Source: a virus
Strand: one strand, 5' to 3'
Length of the DNA: 52,775 nucleotides
IMG/VR virus record: IMGVR_UViG_3300049733_000520
Location: 1-52,775 of that record
The position numbers and the translations under genes were made by a program. The notes beneath the pieces are model-generated. The model saw only the letters and a program-made list of their open reading frames with translations. It was not told where the DNA came from and searched no databases. This document shows, piece after piece, positions 23,531 through 29,361 of the stretch; positions within the stretch are counted from its first letter, which is position 1; the number at the start of each line of letters is the position of its first letter.

Positions 23531-24922
23531 ATGGCAGGCCAGAAGGCCGTCGTCGCCGATCCGTTCCGCGCGCCCACCGCGCCCGCCTGGCTCGGCAGGC
23601 TGCGCGACTGGGTCGATCAGCCCCGCCCGCCCGACTGGTGGACCACCCCGGTCGAGTTCCCCGGCAAGGCACTCGCGACCGAGGCCGCGCGCAGCGCGCT
23701 CCAGTGGCTGACCAACCCGCAGACCGCCGTTGACGCCCTCGCCACCACCGGCGTCCCGGGCGGCCCCCCGCGCCCGCCCGGCGTACGCGCTTTTCACGGC
23801 AGCCCGCACGACTTCGACCGCTTCGACTTCTCTCGAATCGGCAGCGGCCAGGGCGCGCAGACCTACGGCCACGGGCTCTACTTCGCCGAGCGCGAGCCGG
23901 TGGCGCGCACCTACCGCAACGATCTCTCGCCGCGCCCCGAGGTGCTCGTCGGCGGAGAGCCGCTCGACCAGTTCGGCTACATCCGCGGGGGCCAGCGTGT
24001 CCACGACCCGATCGCCGCTGTCGTCGGTGGGCGCCTCTCCTACGCTGCGAACCGGGAGCGGCAGTTCGGCCGCACGCCGGACGTGGCGACCCTCGTGCAA
24101 AACCTCCGCAACGAGATCGCCGCGGCCACGCACAATGCCTCGCTCGCCACCTACAACCAGCTGGAGGATCAGCGCCTCATGCTGGACCGGATGATGGAGC
24201 GGGGGATTACCCTGACCGACCCGGGCCGCATGTACGAGGTGAACCTCGGCATCGACCCCGCTCGCCTCCTCGACTACGACCGCCGCCTCGGCGAGCAGCC
24301 GCACGTCATCGAGGCGCTGCGCAAGCTCGGGCTCCAGGACCTCTACGGCGGCGAGGCGCTCGGCTTCCCGCTGCGCGACCCGCGCAAGGCGATCGAGTTT
24401 CCACTGGAGGCGACCGGCGGGCAGGCCTACGTCAATCTCGCGCGCGCGCAGGCGCCGCCGCTGCCGCCCGCCCTGCGCGACTCGATCCTCGCCGACCGCA
24501 TCCCCGCTGACGAGCGTGCCGCCTCCGCCGCGCTGGCGCGCACCGGCATCCCGGGCCTGCGCTACCTCGATCAGTATTCGCGCGGCAGCGCGCCCGAGGT
24601 CGAGGCGATGCGTCGTCGGCTCGGCGATCTCCAGGAGAACCTGACCGCCTTCGATCGTCTGGTCGCGGCCGGCCAGGCGCGGCCCTCCGCGCCGCAGCGT
24701 CAGCACTTCCAGACACAGATCGACCTGCTCACCACGCGCCTGGCTCAGCTCCAGGAGCCGACGCGTAACTACGTCATCTGGGATCCCTCGGTCTCGATCG
24801 ACATCCTCCGCAAGTACGGCCTGCTCGCCCCGCTCCTCGGCGGCGGCACCCTCGCCGGCCGCCAGCCGCAGCCGTCCTCCTCGCGCTCTTCGCCGCCGCC
24901 GGTCCTCGCGCCGTCGCACTAA
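23531..24922 (+). CDS. ADP-ribosyltransferase-like (ART-PolyVal type) protein
   Basis: 463 aa. Residues 89-120 (HGSPHDFDRFD, IGSGQGAQTYGHGLYFAE) are the hallmark of the ART domain found in phage polyvalent proteins and some MuF-type toxins. Later, residues near 335-350 (IPGLRYLDQYSRG) and YVIWDP also recur in that family. Such proteins may be injected to modify host targets by ADP-ribosylation, or be structural; activity is inferred only. Low-complexity Ser/Pro tail. Plus-strand head genes pause here for the reverse cassette block. Confidence 0.7.
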   Translation: MAGQKAVVADPFRAPTAPAWLGRLRDWVDQPRPPDWWTTPVEFPGKALATEAARSALQWLTNPQTAVDALATTGVPGGPPRPPGVRAFHGSPHDFDRFDFSRIGSGQGAQTYGHGLYFAEREPVARTYRNDLSPRPEVLVGGEPLDQFGYIRGGQRVHDPIAAVVGGRLSYAANRERQFGRTPDVATLVQNLRNEIAAATHNASLATYNQLEDQRLMLDRMMERGITLTDPGRMYEVNLGIDPARLLDYDRRLGEQPHVIEALRKLGLQDLYGGEALGFPLRDPRKAIEFPLEATGGQAYVNLARAQAPPLPPALRDSILADRIPADERAASAALARTGIPGLRYLDQYSRGSAPEVEAMRRRLGDLQENLTAFDRLVAAGQARPSAPQRQHFQTQIDLLTTRLAQLQEPTRNYVIWDPSVSIDILRKYGLLAPLLGGGTLAGRQPQPSSSRSSPPPVLAPSH

Positions 24923-24931
24923 AAGCGGCGC

Positions 24932-24961
24932 TCAGCGGCGCTCATCGGCGGCGGCGCCGTC
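24932..24961. repeat. Cassette repeat, copy 1 (degenerate, array terminus)
   Basis: A 30-bp variant with one extra GCC codon and GAG in place of GAC. Its internal ATG (24945) opens only an eight-codon frame (MSAAERRF, stop at 24919-24921), so no further gene follows. It ends the array. Confidence 0.7.
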
Positions 24962-25141
24962 CGCGGCGTCTCGGCGCTCGGCGAGCACCGCCTCGATCAG
25001 GCGGAGCCGGCCGTTACAGAAGTCGCGATCGGCCCCGCATTCGCGGTCGAGGAGGAAGGCCTGCTGCAGCAGGTACAGCTCCCGCGTGCGCATGGTGCCG
25101 TACACCAGGCGGAGGTCCGCGCCGGGGTCAGCGGCGGTCAT
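24932..25141 (-). CDS. Cassette gene 1 (69 aa), MTAAD start
   Basis: 69 aa. The N-terminus MTAAD is encoded by the repeat at 25128-25157 and the C-terminus GAAADERR by a diverged copy at 24932-24961. The unique middle is helical (TRELYLLQQAFLLD, CGADRDFCNG). Last gene of the minus-strand array. Unknown function. Confidence 0.6.
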   Translation of the reverse strand: MTAADPGADLRLVYGTMRTRELYLLQQAFLLDRECGADRDFCNGRLRLIEAVLAERRDAADGAAADERR

Positions 25142-25157
25142 CGGCGGCGCCCGTCAC
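25128..25157. repeat. Cassette repeat, copy 2
   Basis: Full 30-bp repeat containing the invariant core GCGGCGGTCATCGGCGGC. On the minus strand it carries the start of cassette 1; cassette 2 is in another frame and stops at its first TGA. Confidence 0.8.
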
Positions 25158-25315
25158 TTCGAGTCGATCCAGCACTGCTCGCATAACACCTCTCCCGGTA
25201 CGATCATCTCGAAGCGTTCGCACCACGCGCAGCGGCCCAACCGGAAATACCGCCAGCCACCGGTCAGCCACAGCCAGAGTACGCGGCACGGGTGAACAGC
25301 GTCAGCGGCGGTCAT
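25154..25315 (-). CDS. Cassette gene 2 (53 aa), zinc finger
   Basis: 53 aa (MTAADAVHPCRVLW...). CAWC and CEQC make a likely C4 zinc site; WLWLTGGWRYFRL is aromatic. Unlike its neighbours it enters the repeat in a different frame and stops at the TGA in GTGACG, so it ends in DSK rather than GAADDRR. Too short to show in a 60-residue ORF scan. Confidence 0.55.
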   Translation of the reverse strand: MTAADAVHPCRVLWLWLTGGWRYFRLGRCAWCERFEMIVPGEVLCEQCWIDSK

Positions 25316-25330
25316 CGGCGGCGCCCGTCC
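25302..25330. repeat. Cassette repeat, copy 3
   Basis: Same core as the other copies; encodes the GAADDRR end of cassette 3 and the MTAAD start of cassette 2, overlapping by 14 nt. Confidence 0.8.
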
Positions 25331-25532
25331 CTCTATTCGCGGCGCGCCACTCGTTCACGAAGCAGAGAGCGCACACAGGCTGATTGAGATCAGGCGCGTC
25401 ATGGAACCTGATCGTTCCGCCGATGTGGTCTTCGCACATGACGACCTGCCGGCACAGGCGACAGCGCACGAGCAGCCCGGCCTCTGCGAGCGTCTTGCCG
25501 CAGGTCACGCAGGCGAGGTCAGCGGCGGTCAT
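25302..25532 (-). CDS. Cassette gene 3 (76 aa), treble zinc knuckle
   Basis: 76 aa: MTAADLACVTCGKTL, CRLCRQVVMCEDH, then CALCF give three or four CxxC pairs, consistent with two zinc ions in a FYVE/RING-like or split zinc ribbon. Ends TGAADDRR from the repeat. Function unknown; protein or RNA binding is plausible. Confidence 0.6.
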   Translation of the reverse strand: MTAADLACVTCGKTLAEAGLLVRCRLCRQVVMCEDHIGGTIRFHDAPDLNQPVCALCFVNEWRAANRGTGAADDRR

Positions 25533-25546
25533 CGGCGGCGCCCTCC
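25519..25546. repeat. Cassette repeat, copy 4
   Basis: Core identical; diverges after GCGCCC (CTCC instead of GTCAC). Joins cassettes 3 and 4. Confidence 0.8.
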
Positions 25547-25707
25547 GCAGGCGTGAACGTGACGCCGCCCTCGCGCAGCAGGCACTCGATAATCTCTTTC
25601 ACCGTCGTCAGCAACTTGCCGCTCGCGTCGTAGTGCTTCGTACCACGGGCGAGCGCCTCGGTGATCTCGCGCAGCAGGATGCGCGCGTTCTCATCAGCGG
25701 CGGTCAT
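25519..25707 (-). CDS. Cassette gene 4 (62 aa), helical
   Basis: 62 aa: MTAAD, then a helical body (ARILLREITEALARGTKHYD, TTVKEIIECLL) and GAADDRR. No cysteine cluster, unlike its neighbours, so the array is not one zinc family. Both ends come from repeat copies. Confidence 0.6.
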   Translation of the reverse strand: MTAADENARILLREITEALARGTKHYDASGKLLTTVKEIIECLLREGGVTFTPAEGAADDRR

Positions 25708-25723
25708 CGGCGGCGCCCGTCAC
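25694..25723. repeat. Cassette repeat, copy 5
   Basis: Full-length 30-bp copy, identical to copy 2 over its length. Joins cassettes 4 and 5. Confidence 0.8.
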
Positions 25724-25957
25724 CTTCACCGGATACCCTGCTGCATCGTAGCTACGCGGGTCCGGGTAGTAGGCTTTCCCCAACGTCGAGAGCGTCTTGC
25801 GCCACTCCTTCTCGTAGTAGCACGCAGCCCCGCAGACGGCCTGATCGAACCCGTGCCATGTGCGGTTCACGGTGGCGGCGTAGGTCACGCCGCAGATGCA
25901 ACAGAACAACGGCATCTCAGAATAGAGGGACATGGTCGTCCGGTCAGCGGCGGTCAT
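25694..25957 (-). CDS. Cassette gene 5 (87 aa), zinc finger
   Basis: 87 aa from the repeat-encoded MTAAD at 25957. CCICG and CGAACYY pairs suggest a zinc site; the C-terminal half (YYPDPRSYDAAGYPVKVTG) runs into GAADDRR. An ATG ten codons upstream lies outside the pattern shared by the array and is not used. Function unknown. Confidence 0.6.
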   Translation of the reverse strand: MTAADRTTMSLYSEMPLFCCICGVTYAATVNRTWHGFDQAVCGAACYYEKEWRKTLSTLGKAYYPDPRSYDAAGYPVKVTGAADDRR

Positions 25958-25971
25958 CGGCGGCGCCCTTC
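25944..25971. repeat. Cassette repeat, copy 6
   Basis: Core identical; flank differs (CCCTTCC). Joins cassettes 5 and 6. Confidence 0.8.
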
Positions 25972-26111
25972 CATCCGTTCGCGGCAAGCCACTGCGCCAA
26001 GTCGATGATCAGCAGCGCAACCTCCTGCGGCGTCAACGCGCATTCTGGCGAGTAGGGCCAGCGGTAGAGCGGCTCCGGTGGCCGTTCGTCTTTGCGCTTA
26101 GCGGCGGTCAT
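25944..26111 (-). CDS. Cassette gene 6 (55 aa)
   Basis: 55 aa: MTAAKRKDERPPEPLYRW, a helical core (LTPQEVALLIIDLAQWLAAN) and GWKGAADDRR. It starts in repeat copy 7 and ends in copy 6. The amphipathic helix resembles small dimerising phage proteins, but no family is clear. Shorter than 60 aa. Confidence 0.55.
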   Translation of the reverse strand: MTAAKRKDERPPEPLYRWPYSPECALTPQEVALLIIDLAQWLAANGWKGAADDRR

Positions 26112-26127
26112 CGGCGGCGCCCGTCAC
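26098..26127. repeat. Cassette repeat, copy 7
   Basis: Core identical; stop codon is TAA here rather than TGA. Joins cassettes 6 and 7 and gives MTAAK instead of MTAAD. Confidence 0.8.
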
Positions 26128-26337
26128 CATGAAGTCGTGCGCCCAGTCCTGCCGATACGTGCAGTCCTCACAGACCCAGCCAGCGGGCGTCGCGACCAGC
26201 ACGCGGTGCCGCGAATCTGTGCCGCAGGTGAACGGGTGGACCCGTCCGTTATGCTGCCACCGATTCAGGGCGTCGATCTGTTCAGGCGTGAACGGTGCTC
26301 GAATGTGCATGTCGTGTGCTCTCTTAGCGGCGGTCAT
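26098..26337 (-). CDS. Cassette gene 7 (79 aa), phage-type zinc protein
   Basis: 79 aa. APFTPEQIDALNRWQ, HPFTCG, CEDC and RQDWAHDFM form a pattern I recognise from many phage proteins of about 60-70 aa that carry a C..H..CxxC zinc site. In this protein the repeat adds the extra tail TGAADDRR after the usual DFM end, showing the tail is an add-on. Function unknown. Confidence 0.65.
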   Translation of the reverse strand: MTAAKRAHDMHIRAPFTPEQIDALNRWQHNGRVHPFTCGTDSRHRVLVATPAGWVCEDCTYRQDWAHDFMVTGAADDRR

Positions 26338-26353
26338 CGGCGGCGCCCGTCAC
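26324..26353. repeat. Cassette repeat, copy 8
   Basis: Full-length copy with a TAA stop. Last copy of this family; the next junctions use a different 18-bp repeat. Confidence 0.8.
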
Positions 26354-26539
26354 GTAGTCGCGGCATTCTTGGCAGTCGCACGCCTTCCCGGTGCGCTCGC
26401 CACGAACATAGGCATTGCGCCCGTGGCATCGGTGTTCAAACGGCGCGCGAACGTTGCACCCGTCGCAGATGATCGACGGCCGCGTCATCTCATATTCCTT
26501 GTAGCCTTGCCCCTTGTCGTGGTCTGTGGTGATGTCCAT
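26324..26539 (-). CDS. Cassette gene 8 (71 aa), zinc finger
   Basis: 71 aa from MDITTDHDKG with TTGGAGGCAAGG ahead of the ATG at 26539. CDGCN, CHG and CDCQEC are likely metal ligands; ends TGAADDRR. A start seven codons upstream at 26560 is encoded in the 18-bp repeat and is the analogue of the start used by the next gene, so 26560 is a real alternative. Confidence 0.6.
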   Translation of the reverse strand: MDITTDHDKGQGYKEYEMTRPSIICDGCNVRAPFEHRCHGRNAYVRGERTGKACDCQECRDYVTGAADDRR

Positions 26540-26556
26540 GCCTTGCCTCCAAGGTC

Positions 26557-26574
26557 GCATAACCGTGATTACGT
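26557..26574. repeat. Second junction repeat, copy 1 (18 bp)
   Basis: GCATAACCGTGATTACGT, exact copy at 26904-26921. On the minus strand it supplies the TAA stop of one gene and, 8 nt on, an ATG for the next. Confidence 0.75.
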
Positions 26575-26907
26575 TTCCTTCGGCTCGATCAGTTTGAAGT
26601 CGCCGTCAACGAACTTCCGCAACGCCGCCTCTGCGGATCGGGCGCGGAGGATCGCCGCTTGTTCGACCGCGTGATGCGCTGCCATGGCTTCCGTCAGCCG
26701 CGCCACCTCGCGCTCCAGCTGCTCGATCTCCGCGACGAAGCTCTCCAGCAGCTTGTACGCTGCGTAGGTGTCCGCGCCGTAGATCGTGCCGCCCGCGATC
26801 GGGTTGATGCCGGTGTCGCTGAGCAGCCCGACGACCTCCCCGCGCCCCTTCTCCAGGATCGCCTTCGCCCGCTGCAGGTCTTCTTCAATCGTGTCGTAGT
26901 AGGGCAT
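26569..26907 (-). CDS. Coiled-coil protein (112 aa)
   Basis: 112 aa starting in the 18-bp repeat (26907). Heptad-like helices at 8-30 and 55-100 (LLESFVAEIEQLEREVARLT) indicate a coiled coil. Shares the LEREVARL stretch with the next upstream protein, so part may be duplicated. Unknown role. Confidence 0.65.
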   Translation of the reverse strand: MPYYDTIEEDLQRAKAILEKGRGEVVGLLSDTGINPIAGGTIYGADTYAAYKLLESFVAEIEQLEREVARLTEAMAAHHAVEQAAILRARSAEAALRKFVDGDFKLIEPKET

Positions 26908-26921
26908 AACCGTGATTACGT
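26904..26921. repeat. Second junction repeat, copy 2 (18 bp)
   Basis: Exact copy of 26557-26574; joins the 112-aa and 287-aa coiled-coil genes with stop and start 8 nt apart. Confidence 0.75.
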
Positions 26922-27779
26922 CAACGAGTCCGGTGGCGCTTTACAGGTGCAAGTGGCGAACGCCAGATCGCAATCCGCTTCGTGTTCGCGTGAACACAAC
27001 GAGCACCCGTTCGGCACCTGCGGATTGACCATCGTCAGCTTGAGCAGCCGCGCCACCTCGCGCTCCAGTTCCTGCACCCGTTCATGCGCCTCGTTCCACA
27101 GCGTCTGCCAGTCGTTGGCCCGGGTGTGCTCCTCGCCCGCCTTCTTGTCCCAGAAGTCGCGGTCCTCGGTCAGCCGCTCCACCTCGGCCTCCAGGTCCAC
27201 GACGTCCGCGAACGGGACCATGCCCCCGACGGCCGCTTCGAGTTCGCTCAGTCGGGCGAGGTAGCGGTCGCCTTCGCGCGTCAGCGCCGCGACCTGTTCC
27301 CCGTACTGCGCCTGCATCGCTTTCATGGCGACCCAGTAGTTGTGTTGGTTGTCGACCAGTGCGACCTGCGCCTCGCTTAGCTTCTTCTGCAGCCCGTCGG
27401 CGGCGGCGTGGTAGGTGTCGGCCATGTGCGCGAGATCGTGCTCCAGCTCCGCGACCCGCGCCTGCCACTTCGCATCACACTTGGCGAGGTAGTTGTCGAG
27501 GTCTCTGGCGTGGTCGCGCTCCAGGTCCGCGACGCGCGCCTCCGCCGCCCGCGCCCGCTCGATCCAGTCCAGCCGCGTCCCCGCATACGACTGTTCGCCA
27601 ATGGCGGCGTGGTACTCCGCCGTGAGCTGCAGGACCGCCTGCTCCAGCTCCGCGATGCGCGTCTGGAGCGTCGTGTCGAGCGCCTCCATCTCGCCGCGCT
27701 TCACATAGTGCGCCTCGAAGTCCTCGTCGCAGGTGAGGCACTCGCCGTTGTGATCGGGCTTGAAGTCGCTGCAGGCCAT
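26916..27779 (-). CDS. Long coiled-coil protein with zinc-type ends (287 aa)
   Basis: 287 aa starting MACSDFKPDHNG at 27779, after GAGGACGACGACG. CLTCDEDF near the N-terminus and CSLC plus CTC near the C-terminus flank about 200 residues of heptad-rich helix (TRIAELEQAVLQLTAEYH, VADLERDHARDLDN, LEAEVERLTEDRDFWDK). Resembles phage coiled-coil proteins that form filaments or scaffolds; function unknown. Confidence 0.65.
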   Translation of the reverse strand: MACSDFKPDHNGECLTCDEDFEAHYVKRGEMEALDTTLQTRIAELEQAVLQLTAEYHAAIGEQSYAGTRLDWIERARAAEARVADLERDHARDLDNYLAKCDAKWQARVAELEHDLAHMADTYHAAADGLQKKLSEAQVALVDNQHNYWVAMKAMQAQYGEQVAALTREGDRYLARLSELEAAVGGMVPFADVVDLEAEVERLTEDRDFWDKKAGEEHTRANDWQTLWNEAHERVQELEREVARLLKLTMVNPQVPNGCSLCSREHEADCDLAFATCTCKAPPDSLT

Positions 27780-27790
27780 CGTCGTCGTCC

Positions 27791-28033
27791 TCACCGTCGC
27801 GGCTGGCGTGCCTTGAACGCGGCCAGCTGCACCGCGATCACGACATCGGCGAGGATCTCCTCGGCCGGCAGGTCCTGCCAGATCGCGAGCAGCCCCTCGT
27901 GCCGAGCGATGCGTAGCCGATCGACCTGGTCCCAGTCCAGGAGCGGCCCCGGGTGAACCGGACAGCCGCTCGTGCTGGTCGAGCGGTACTGGCCGTTGAC
28001 GATGATGCAGGTGCAGTCGGGGTGGTGGGCCAT
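27791..28033 (-). CDS. Hypothetical protein with N-terminal Cys/His site (80 aa)
   Basis: 80 aa (MAHHPDCTCIIVNGQY...). CTC and GCPVH could form a zinc site like the CPVHG end of the 6656-7210 protein. A helical C-terminus follows. Its ATG overlaps the TGA of the upstream gene (TGATG). Function unknown. Confidence 0.6.
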   Translation of the reverse strand: MAHHPDCTCIIVNGQYRSTSTSGCPVHPGPLLDWDQVDRLRIARHEGLLAIWQDLPAEEILADVVIAVQLAAFKARQPRR

Positions 28034-28209
28034 CAGCTCGGCCTGATCAACTCGTTGGTGATCTGCATCATCTCTTCCAGGATGGCGTGCATCCGCGACA
28101 CGTTGGCGATCGACGCCTTGAGGCGTTCGATCTCGTCGCCCTGGGCCTTGAAGAGTTCCTGTTGAAATTCGTAGTGCTTGCGGATGAGGGCCTTCTCGTG
28201 TTCGGTCAT
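28033..28209 (-). CDS. Small coiled-coil protein (58 aa)
   Basis: 58 aa (MTEHEKALIRKHYEFQQELF...), almost wholly one charged helix with heptad spacing (LKASIANVSRMHAILEEM). GAGGACGACGACG precedes the ATG. Below the length of most ORF scans. Unknown function. Confidence 0.55.
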   Translation of the reverse strand: MTEHEKALIRKHYEFQQELFKAQGDEIERLKASIANVSRMHAILEEMMQITNELIRPS

Positions 28210-28233
28210 CGTCGTCGTCCTCGTCCTCCCCGG

Positions 28234-28446
28234 CTACTGCGGCAGGCGCGACAGGTTCCACAACAGCCAGAAGATGCCGATGGTCAAGCCGGTCTGGATG
28301 ACGAGCGTGCTCTTGATGACGGCGAGGTCGCGCTTCATGCTCGCCAGGTCGTCGAGCGAGGCGGCTTCCCTGGCTTCGGCCTCAGTCGCGGTGGGGACCC
28401 GTTTGAGCAGGTCGTAGAGCGCCATGTTCATCGTCTTGATCGGCAT
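28234..28446 (-). CDS. Small membrane protein, coiled coil plus C-terminal helix (70 aa)
   Basis: 70 aa. Charged helix (residues 20-45) then a hydrophobic helix 46-65 (STLVIQTGLTIGIFWLLWNL). The end (KST.VIQTG...FWLLW) resembles the 51-aa protein at 7852-8007 (KTTTAIHTG...LWILW), suggesting paralogues. First gene of the minus cassette operon, with the GAGGACGACGACG leader. A lysis or membrane-association role is only a guess. Confidence 0.6.
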   Translation of the reverse strand: MPIKTMNMALYDLLKRVPTATEAEAREAASLDDLASMKRDLAVIKSTLVIQTGLTIGIFWLLWNLSRLPQ

Positions 28447-28505
28447 CGTCGTCGTCCTCCGCGTCGTCGTCCCCCGCTAGCCTACCACCACCGCCCGCCC
28501 TCCCG

Positions 28506-28524
28506 CTTAGGGGGATCTTGACGA
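28506..28524 (+). promoter_or_regulatory. GGGGGATCTTGAC element, copy 3
   Basis: CTTAGGGGGATCTTGAC (28506-28522) is identical to the copy at 13972 except A to T, and ends 33 nt before the ATG at 28555. It lies between the minus array and the plus capsid block. Confidence 0.5.
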
Positions 28525-28554
28525 CCCCCCGATCTGCCCCGACGCTTCCAGACC

Positions 28555-28713
28555 ATGCCGCTCACCGACTCCGGCTCCAAGGTCCTCCGCTCGATGACCT
28601 CGCAGTACGGCGCGGAGAAGGGCAAGCGCGTCTTCTACGCCACGGCGAATAAGAAACCAGGACTTGGGAAGAAGTGGCACGCCAAACGGGCAATGAGCAG
28701 CGGCCGGCGTTAA
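28555..28713 (+). CDS. Small conserved phage protein (52 aa)
   Basis: 52 aa: MPLTDSGSKVLRSMTSQYGA, EKGKRVFYATANKKPG and a basic tail. This resembles a family of 45-60-aa proteins common near capsid genes of diverse phages, of unknown role. It is the first gene after the late-type element at 28506. Confidence 0.65.
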   Translation: MPLTDSGSKVLRSMTSQYGAEKGKRVFYATANKKPGLGKKWHAKRAMSSGRR

Positions 28714-28792
28714 CGGTTGAACTACCGCGCACGGTATCGCGCGGCGTAAGCAGCTCCTCGGCGGTGACCCGACGGTCGCCAGGGTTCGGGCC

Positions 28793-28957
28793 ATGGCAGC
28801 GTTCGGCGGCAAGCAGGCGCCGCCCTTCGGGAAGAAGGGCGCAGGCGCACGCAAATCCAGCAAGGGTCGGAAGCCGACCAAGGACGAACGAGGCGGCTCG
28901 CCCGCCAGTAAGGCCTTGCGCCAGCCCCGTTCGATGCGGGGCGGAGGGCGCTACTGA
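28793..28957 (+). CDS. Small basic protein (54 aa)
   Basis: 54 aa rich in Lys, Arg and Gly (FGKKGAGARKSSKGRK). Stop overlaps the next start (TGATG). A nucleic-acid-binding or head-associated role is possible; 80 nt before it contain no other gene. Confidence 0.5.
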   Translation: MAAFGGKQAPPFGKKGAGARKSSKGRKPTKDERGGSPASKALRQPRSMRGGGRY

Positions 28958-29361
28958 TGTGGCCCCCGGCCGGCACCGGCTTCCCGGGCATGGGCCCGTC
29001 CTCTGGCGCCAGCGCGCTCGACATGCCGCCGCCGTCTCCCACGCCGATGGGCGGCAGCCCGCTCGACCCGCTCAGCCCGCGCGGCCTCGTCCCGCCCGGC
29101 CCGGTCCCGTCGCAGCAGATGCCGCCCGAGATCCTCACCGGTATCACGCAGTCGGCGCAGGCGATCTCCGACACCTTCGACGCCTGGAGCCAGGTGACGC
29201 CCAACCGCGCCGCCCAGCTCGCGCTCATCAAGGACATGCTCCAGCAATACCTCGCCGACGTGATGGCTGACGGCGCTGGACCGACGACTCCGACTGCCAG
29301 TGGTCCGGCGTTCCCTGGCGGCGGCATCGACCGCGGCATGGCAGGTGCCGGGGCGATCTAA
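28957..29361 (+). CDS. Head-region protein, Pro/Gly-rich N-terminus (134 aa)
   Basis: 134 aa with a disordered Pro/Gly/Met first half and a helical second half (PEILTGITQSAQAISDTFDA, ALIKDMLQQYLADVM). Similar layout to proteins between small head genes and the scaffold in other podoviruses. Function unknown. Confidence 0.55.
   Translation: MWPPAGTGFPGMGPSSGASALDMPPPSPTPMGGSPLDPLSPRGLVPPGPVPSQQMPPEILTGITQSAQAISDTFDAWSQVTPNRAAQLALIKDMLQQYLADVMADGAGPTTPTASGPAFPGGGIDRGMAGAGAI

Follow-up and report, generated by a model that had tools for sequence, protein, structure and literature searches.

Array of small genes and its repeat

The window, which is the whole stretch of viral DNA analysed (52,775 nucleotides), contains on its minus strand, from position 26560 to 24932, eight small ORFs (c1-c8) of 53-87 amino acids. 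Eight copies of one repeat are located within 24934-26347 of this strand, of which seven are exact and one has two mismatches. The positions of the genes and the repeats are summarized in Table 1. The sequence GGCGCCGCCGATGACCGCCGCT is exact in seven of the eight copies and reaches 23 bp when the preceding G is counted. Likewise, GGGCGCCGCCGATGACCGCCGCT is identical at seven junctions, and the copy with two mismatches is located 3' of c8. A longer 30-bp form, starting with GTGACG, is common to four junctions. The copies are 154-250 bp apart, and all of them are in one orientation at the starts of unrelated genes. The repeat spans the ATG codon and extends 9 nt inside the downstream gene, and is coding on both sides of the start. 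When the dinucleotides are shuffled, a mean of 0.01 copies is expected, as compared to the seven exact copies present.

Table 1. Positions of the small genes, the junction repeats and the surrounding island in the window
Feature	Positions	Strand	Description
Island	24932..28446	-	12 small genes; G+C 0.658 (window 0.702); relatives lack it at this site
c1	26324..26560	-	78 aa, Cys-rich; opened by ACGTAATCACGGTTATG, GAADDRR tail
c2	26098..26337	-	79 aa, Cys-containing; MTAA...GAADDRR
c3	25944..26111	-	55 aa; MTAA...GAADDRR
c4	25694..25957	-	87 aa, CCxCG...VCxxxC family; native start 25933; repeat-less homologues L144, L018, L147, L148, L033
c5	25519..25707	-	62 aa, not Cys-rich; MTAA...GAADDRR
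c6	25302..25532	-	76 aa, Cys-rich; MTAA...GAADDRR
c7	25154..25315	-	53 aa, Cys-rich; opens with MTAA, stops at 25156 (TGA), tail-less
c8	24932..25141	-	69 aa; MTAA...GAAADERR
R1	26326..26347	-	c1/c2 junction
R2	26100..26121	-	c2/c3 junction
R3	25946..25967	-	c3/c4 junction
R4	25696..25717	-	c4/c5 junction
R5	25521..25542	-	c5/c6 junction
R6	25304..25325	-	c6/c7 junction
R7	25130..25151	-	c7/c8 junction
R8	24934..24955	-	degenerate, 2 mismatches; opens only MSAAERRF*
ACGTAATCACGGTTATG	26558..26574	-	second junction repeat, copy before c1
ACGTAATCACGGTTATG	26905..26921	-	copy before the 112-aa gene (26569-26907)

The sequence GAADDRR terminates six of the eight genes (c1-c6), whereas c8 ends with the degenerate form GAAADERR and c7, which ends with WIDSK*, has no tail. 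The stop codon and the next ATG codon overlap by 14 nt in seven of the eight genes, in such a way that the stop starts 11 nt after the A of ATG. In c7, the stop instead stands 15 nt ahead of the following ATG. The R8 copy opens only a remnant of eight codons. Pairwise comparison of the eight bodies gives no mutual similarity above that of shuffled sequences. The c1-c8 proteins have no significant match in Pfam, PHROGs or PADLOC, and neither c2 nor c6 has a close relative outside its own phage.

A preliminary description of this DNA reported eight copies of the repeat, 150-250 bp apart, seven of them with an identical 23-bp core, and unrelated bodies between them, all of which is confirmed. It also stated that each copy ends one gene with VTGAADDRR and, 14 nt back, begins the next one with MTAA. 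The former statement is correct in full for c1, c2 and c4, and in its GAADDRR part for c3, c5 and c6, but not for c7 and c8; the 14-nt geometry applies to all genes except c7, and the MTAA start to R1-R7, but not to R8. Because c7 is tail-less and yet its junction DNA is identical, the junction DNA or RNA, rather than the tail peptide, is the common unit.

The core contains CCGCCG twice, 10 bp apart. Its invariant part, GGGCGCCGCCG, does not contain an AGGAG Shine-Dalgarno sequence. The predicted Shine-Dalgarno pairing of the seven repeat starts, taken as a group, is nevertheless similar to that of other genes (p = 0.43), and the idea that these starts lack Shine-Dalgarno sequences was dropped for this lack of statistical support. 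An RNA structure common to the junctions is not detected, and the core folds with only −5.3 kcal/mol. A sigma-70-like promoter is not found in the region 24700-29000. Past the repeat, the ends of c6 (25301-25351) and c3 (25943-25993) agree at about 20 of 26 positions, so that some junction copies may have longer flanks in common. TAAG is common to the neighbouring junctions before c2 and c3.

Island containing the array

The array is part of the minus-strand island. The gap between the 463-aa gene (end at 24922) and the 52-aa gene (28555) is 3,632 nt long in the window, but only about 46 nt long in the relatives L018 and L043. The G+C content of the island and its third-position G+C content are both lower than those of the structural genes. 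None of the isolate phages searched by DNA contains the island. The first gene of the array, c1, opens not at the array repeat but at ACGTAATCACGGTTATG, which occurs twice and is common to c1 and the preceding gene (start at 26907). A further sequence, GGACGACGACGATG, is present at three other gene starts of the island (27779, 28209 and 28446, minus strand); it is partly of low complexity and also occurs at some gene starts in relatives. Thus, there are three types of junction in the island, arranged as three blocks. A paralogue of its gene at 28234-28446 is found towards the right end of this phage's genome (L086, 7204-7359, minus strand). The 463-aa gene (23531-24922, plus strand), located beside the portal gene, shows a weak match, below the curated cutoff, to ART-PolyVal, the ADP-ribosyltransferase domain of polyvalent proteins.

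Insertion of the c4 body between two repeat copies

The c4 body is the only one of the eight with known homologues, so that grafting of a body is documented once. These homologues are 84% (L144) and 72% (L018/L043) identical to c4, and others are found in L147, L148 and L033. Outside the phage itself, they have their own start and stop and contain neither MTAA nor GAADDRR. The DNA alignment of c4 with L144 extends from 25933, which is an internal ATG of c4 and the native start, to 25725, leaving 2 nt to the extended 30-bp repeat, which begins at 25723. The upstream repeat and a 10-nt linker provide c4 with MTAADRTT, and the downstream repeat stands in for the native stop. As the homology starts precisely with the native ATG and stops 2 nt short of the repeat, c4 was clearly grafted between two repeat copies. 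The dN and dS values between c4 and L144 are 0.12 and 0.85 respectively, indicating that the c4 body is a selected protein-coding gene. L144 does not belong to the relatives recovered by their portal. The predicted fold of c4 (mean pLDDT of 58) is too weak for use. As judged from these alignments, the splice of c4 at the repeats is the strongest evidence suggesting that the bodies were placed between repeats, instead of having diverged from one ancestor.

Phage, probable host and distribution of the array

A 71.6-kb contig from metagenome 3300045927 matches the window over its full length with one mismatch in 52,775 positions. The array is identical in the two contigs, which both represent the same phage. 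Search for the portal gives 58 loci, some of which are the same phage. Several near-complete related records are 67-72 kb long, and identity reaches 91-96% for the major capsid proteins that match best. Among isolate phages, a related portal is found only in those infecting Tunturiibacter, and the only bacterial genome that matches the phage is one Acidobacteria MAG. These matches suggest that the host of this soil phage is probably an acidobacterium (Acidobacteriota).

The array repeat is absent from the relatives, both in the region downstream of the portal and in 50 whole records, except for one chance match with three mismatches. When viral contigs were scanned with a degenerate pattern, the repeat was detected in only one other contig, which is the same phage. 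Six other exact 19-mer matches exist in viral contigs; the two inspected are both fortuitous, being situated within long genes. None of the contigs examined shows an intermediate or another order of the cassettes. The preliminary description proposed that genes could be gained, lost or shuffled at the junctions. Gain is supported for one cassette, c4, which has received the repeat at both ends and not only the tail that had been described as an extension of a phage zinc family; the island as a whole is absent at this site in relatives. In contrast, no loss, shuffling or exchange is seen in related phages, and no other genome among the relatives and viral contigs searched shows exchange at these junctions. 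Because of this, recombination at the repeat is treated here as a hypothesis. The same description named two kinds of counter-evidence, relatives that have the genes but not the repeats, and a lack of exchange at these junctions in other genomes, and each applies in part. Repeat-less relatives are found for one gene, c4; its other surroundings in them argue for grafting. An integrase or annealase is not recognised among the phage proteins scanned, most of which have no family match. A DUF932 protein was considered as an annealase candidate, but dropped, as it has no PDB sequence match.

Start-linked repeats and a C-terminal tag in relatives

Some relatives have start-linked repeats of their own: GAGGGAAACGCTGATG in L050 (8237-8593, plus strand; three copies), GGTGCTCTGATGGC in L113 (17749-18333, minus strand; three copies) and GGAGAGAGCGATGG in L100 (278-2663, minus strand; four copies). 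Their sequences differ, and they have purine-rich, Shine-Dalgarno-like parts. The repeats of G023 were rejected as junctions, as they are collagen-like coding repeats; L124 (100-1700), from this relative, has a long collagen-like repeat gene of the Gly-X-Y type.

On the plus strand, small unrelated proteins encoded between the portal and scaffold-like genes have a common C-terminal tag, [RK]-[STA]-[LMF]-x-(G)G-[KR]-R. The tagged region is present in the window (28555-28713 and 28793-28957) and in most portal relatives, such as L019, L026, L028 and L050. The strict pattern is found in 35 of the 81 proteins in this region, as compared to 4 of the 646 proteins elsewhere, and a looser pattern is found in 22 sequence clusters. 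As the Ser and Arg codons of the tag vary, it is the protein sequence that is kept, in contrast to the minus-strand repeat. An encapsulin targeting peptide has the sequence PLTVGSLRRGG (PMC7925596). The plus-strand tag could be a capsid-targeting tag, for which its likeness to encapsulin targeting peptides provides a lead only.

Comparison with known systems

In integron gene-cassette arrays, unrelated ORFs are separated by repeated sequences. The array repeat differs from them in that it is asymmetric, 23-30 bp long and without an attC-sized site, and in that it is translated and fused to the genes. Among the proteins scanned, most of which have no family match, an integrase is not recognised. 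The mobile regulatory cassettes or PeSL elements of T4-type phages are repeated inter-gene elements proposed for the shuffling of small genes, and consist of a promoter and a terminator stem-loop in non-coding gaps. In contrast, the array repeat is coding, and the region has neither a promoter-like site nor a shared junction hairpin. The studies on these elements, Arbiol 2010 and Comeau 2014, are cited in PMC4503421. Tandem gene duplication requires homologous units, whereas the array bodies are not similar above shuffles.

Nearest to the array repeat are the start-associated sequences (SAS/ESAS) of Cluster K mycobacteriophages, together with motifs of this sort from Microbacterium phage clusters EC, EF, EG and EI (PMC3203893, PMC7302621). 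SAS are located upstream of ATG, contain AGGAG, mostly follow gaps of >50 bp and are conserved cluster-wide. Like SAS, the array repeat is short, well conserved, in a single orientation and tied to the starts of unrelated small phage genes. However, it includes the ATG, while SAS stand a few bp upstream of it; its core lacks AGGAG; the genes overlap at seven junctions, or end 15 nt before ATG at c7, instead of being separated by gaps; and it is confined to one array in one phage. Because position, Shine-Dalgarno content, spacing and conservation differ, the repeat is classed as a new form of phage gene-junction repeat and not as a member of SAS. In archaeal viruses, anti-defence genes are preceded by conserved early promoters (PMC11065993). 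These are similar to the array repeat in that one common sequence serves many unrelated small viral genes, but they are promoters and not stop/start junctions.

Interpretation of the array

The array is interpreted as a moron-like island of co-directional small genes among tailed-phage head genes, built by repeated capture at a copied stop/start junction, with a probability of roughly 0.5. The reading frames of the junction suggest how such capture might operate. When the core is translated in three frames, it gives GRRR-stop (TGA of CGATGA), GAADDRR-stop, and APPMTAAD, which is open into the next gene. An incoming ORF without a stop is thus closed by the core in two of the three frames, and the distance from either stop to the next start is no more than about 15 nt. 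The junction sequence GGGCGCCGCCGATGACCGCCGCTRA would then serve as a frame-tolerant adaptor: an ORF entering it in one frame would be read as GAADDRR-stop, an ORF in the second frame would be ended by the TGA within CGATGA or, in those copies that contain GTGA, by this earlier stop, and only the third frame would fuse the upstream ORF to the next gene. Judging from the geometry, ribosomes terminating at either stop would restart at the junction ATG, and the array genes would be coupled by termination and reinitiation. Because the adaptor closes the frame and supplies the ATG, a captured body needs no stop or start signals of its own. GAADDRR tails and MTAA heads would be mainly by-products of joining to the adaptor. 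The route of capture would be recombination between repeat copies, and the repeat would have been amplified recently. The complete scheme, in which a new small gene is captured in a single step, recombination is guided by homologous ends, two of the three frames are closed, translation is handed on and the array grows without native regulatory signals, is possible, but tentative. The tail frame is used by seven of the eight genes (binomial p of about 0.035, given no fusion), which hints at a possible preference for this frame, such that GAADDRR may not be neutral. The tail is not required, however, because c7 is tail-less.

The repeat may instead be a functional element associated with starts, in a role similar to that of SAS, which would be kept identical because it is recognised at each start, be it by the ribosome or by a factor of the host or the phage, with no special part for recombination. 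The start codon at every copy, the paired CCGCCG, which could be a protein site, the two other start-linked repeats of the island (ACGTAATCACGGTTATG twice and GGACGACGACGATG three times) and those of L050, L113 and L100 are consistent with this explanation. It is less likely all the same, as the array repeat is not kept in any relative, predicted Shine-Dalgarno pairing is no different from that of other genes and the identical stretch covers coding sequence to either side of the start codon. GAADDRR could also be a C-terminal targeting or stability tag on unrelated small proteins, like the plus-strand tail [RK]S[LMF]xGG[KR]R. This phage family does put a common C-terminal peptide on many unrelated small proteins, and the tail frame is kept in seven of the eight cassettes; but c7 is tail-less despite identical junction DNA, the tail of c8 is a variant, and GAADDRR is identical at the nucleotide level, whereas the codons of the plus-strand tag vary. 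A peptide tag is therefore unlikely.

An origin in which a single ancestral gene was duplicated in tandem together with its junction, and the bodies then diverged, would account for junctions that are copies, for the several Cys-rich bodies, for TAAG before c2 and c3 and for the extended likeness of the c3 and c6 ends. It is improbable, because the bodies show no similarity above shuffles and c4, bounded exactly by repeats, has a homologous gene in other phages. Chance, codon bias of GC-rich low-complexity sequence or an assembly artefact is refuted: the phage genome does have many GC-rich codons for alanine and arginine, but only 0.01 copies are expected and the second contig contains the same array.

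The origin of phage operons of tiny unrelated genes is an old question. In the array, what was copied seems to be the junction itself, which codes in two frames, and the splice points of c4 are located with a precision of two nucleotides. Should the adaptor reading be true, it would provide a testable mechanism by which a phage gains small genes while keeping their expression, and identical dual-coding stop/start overlaps would be a signature with which gene-capture arrays may be searched for elsewhere.
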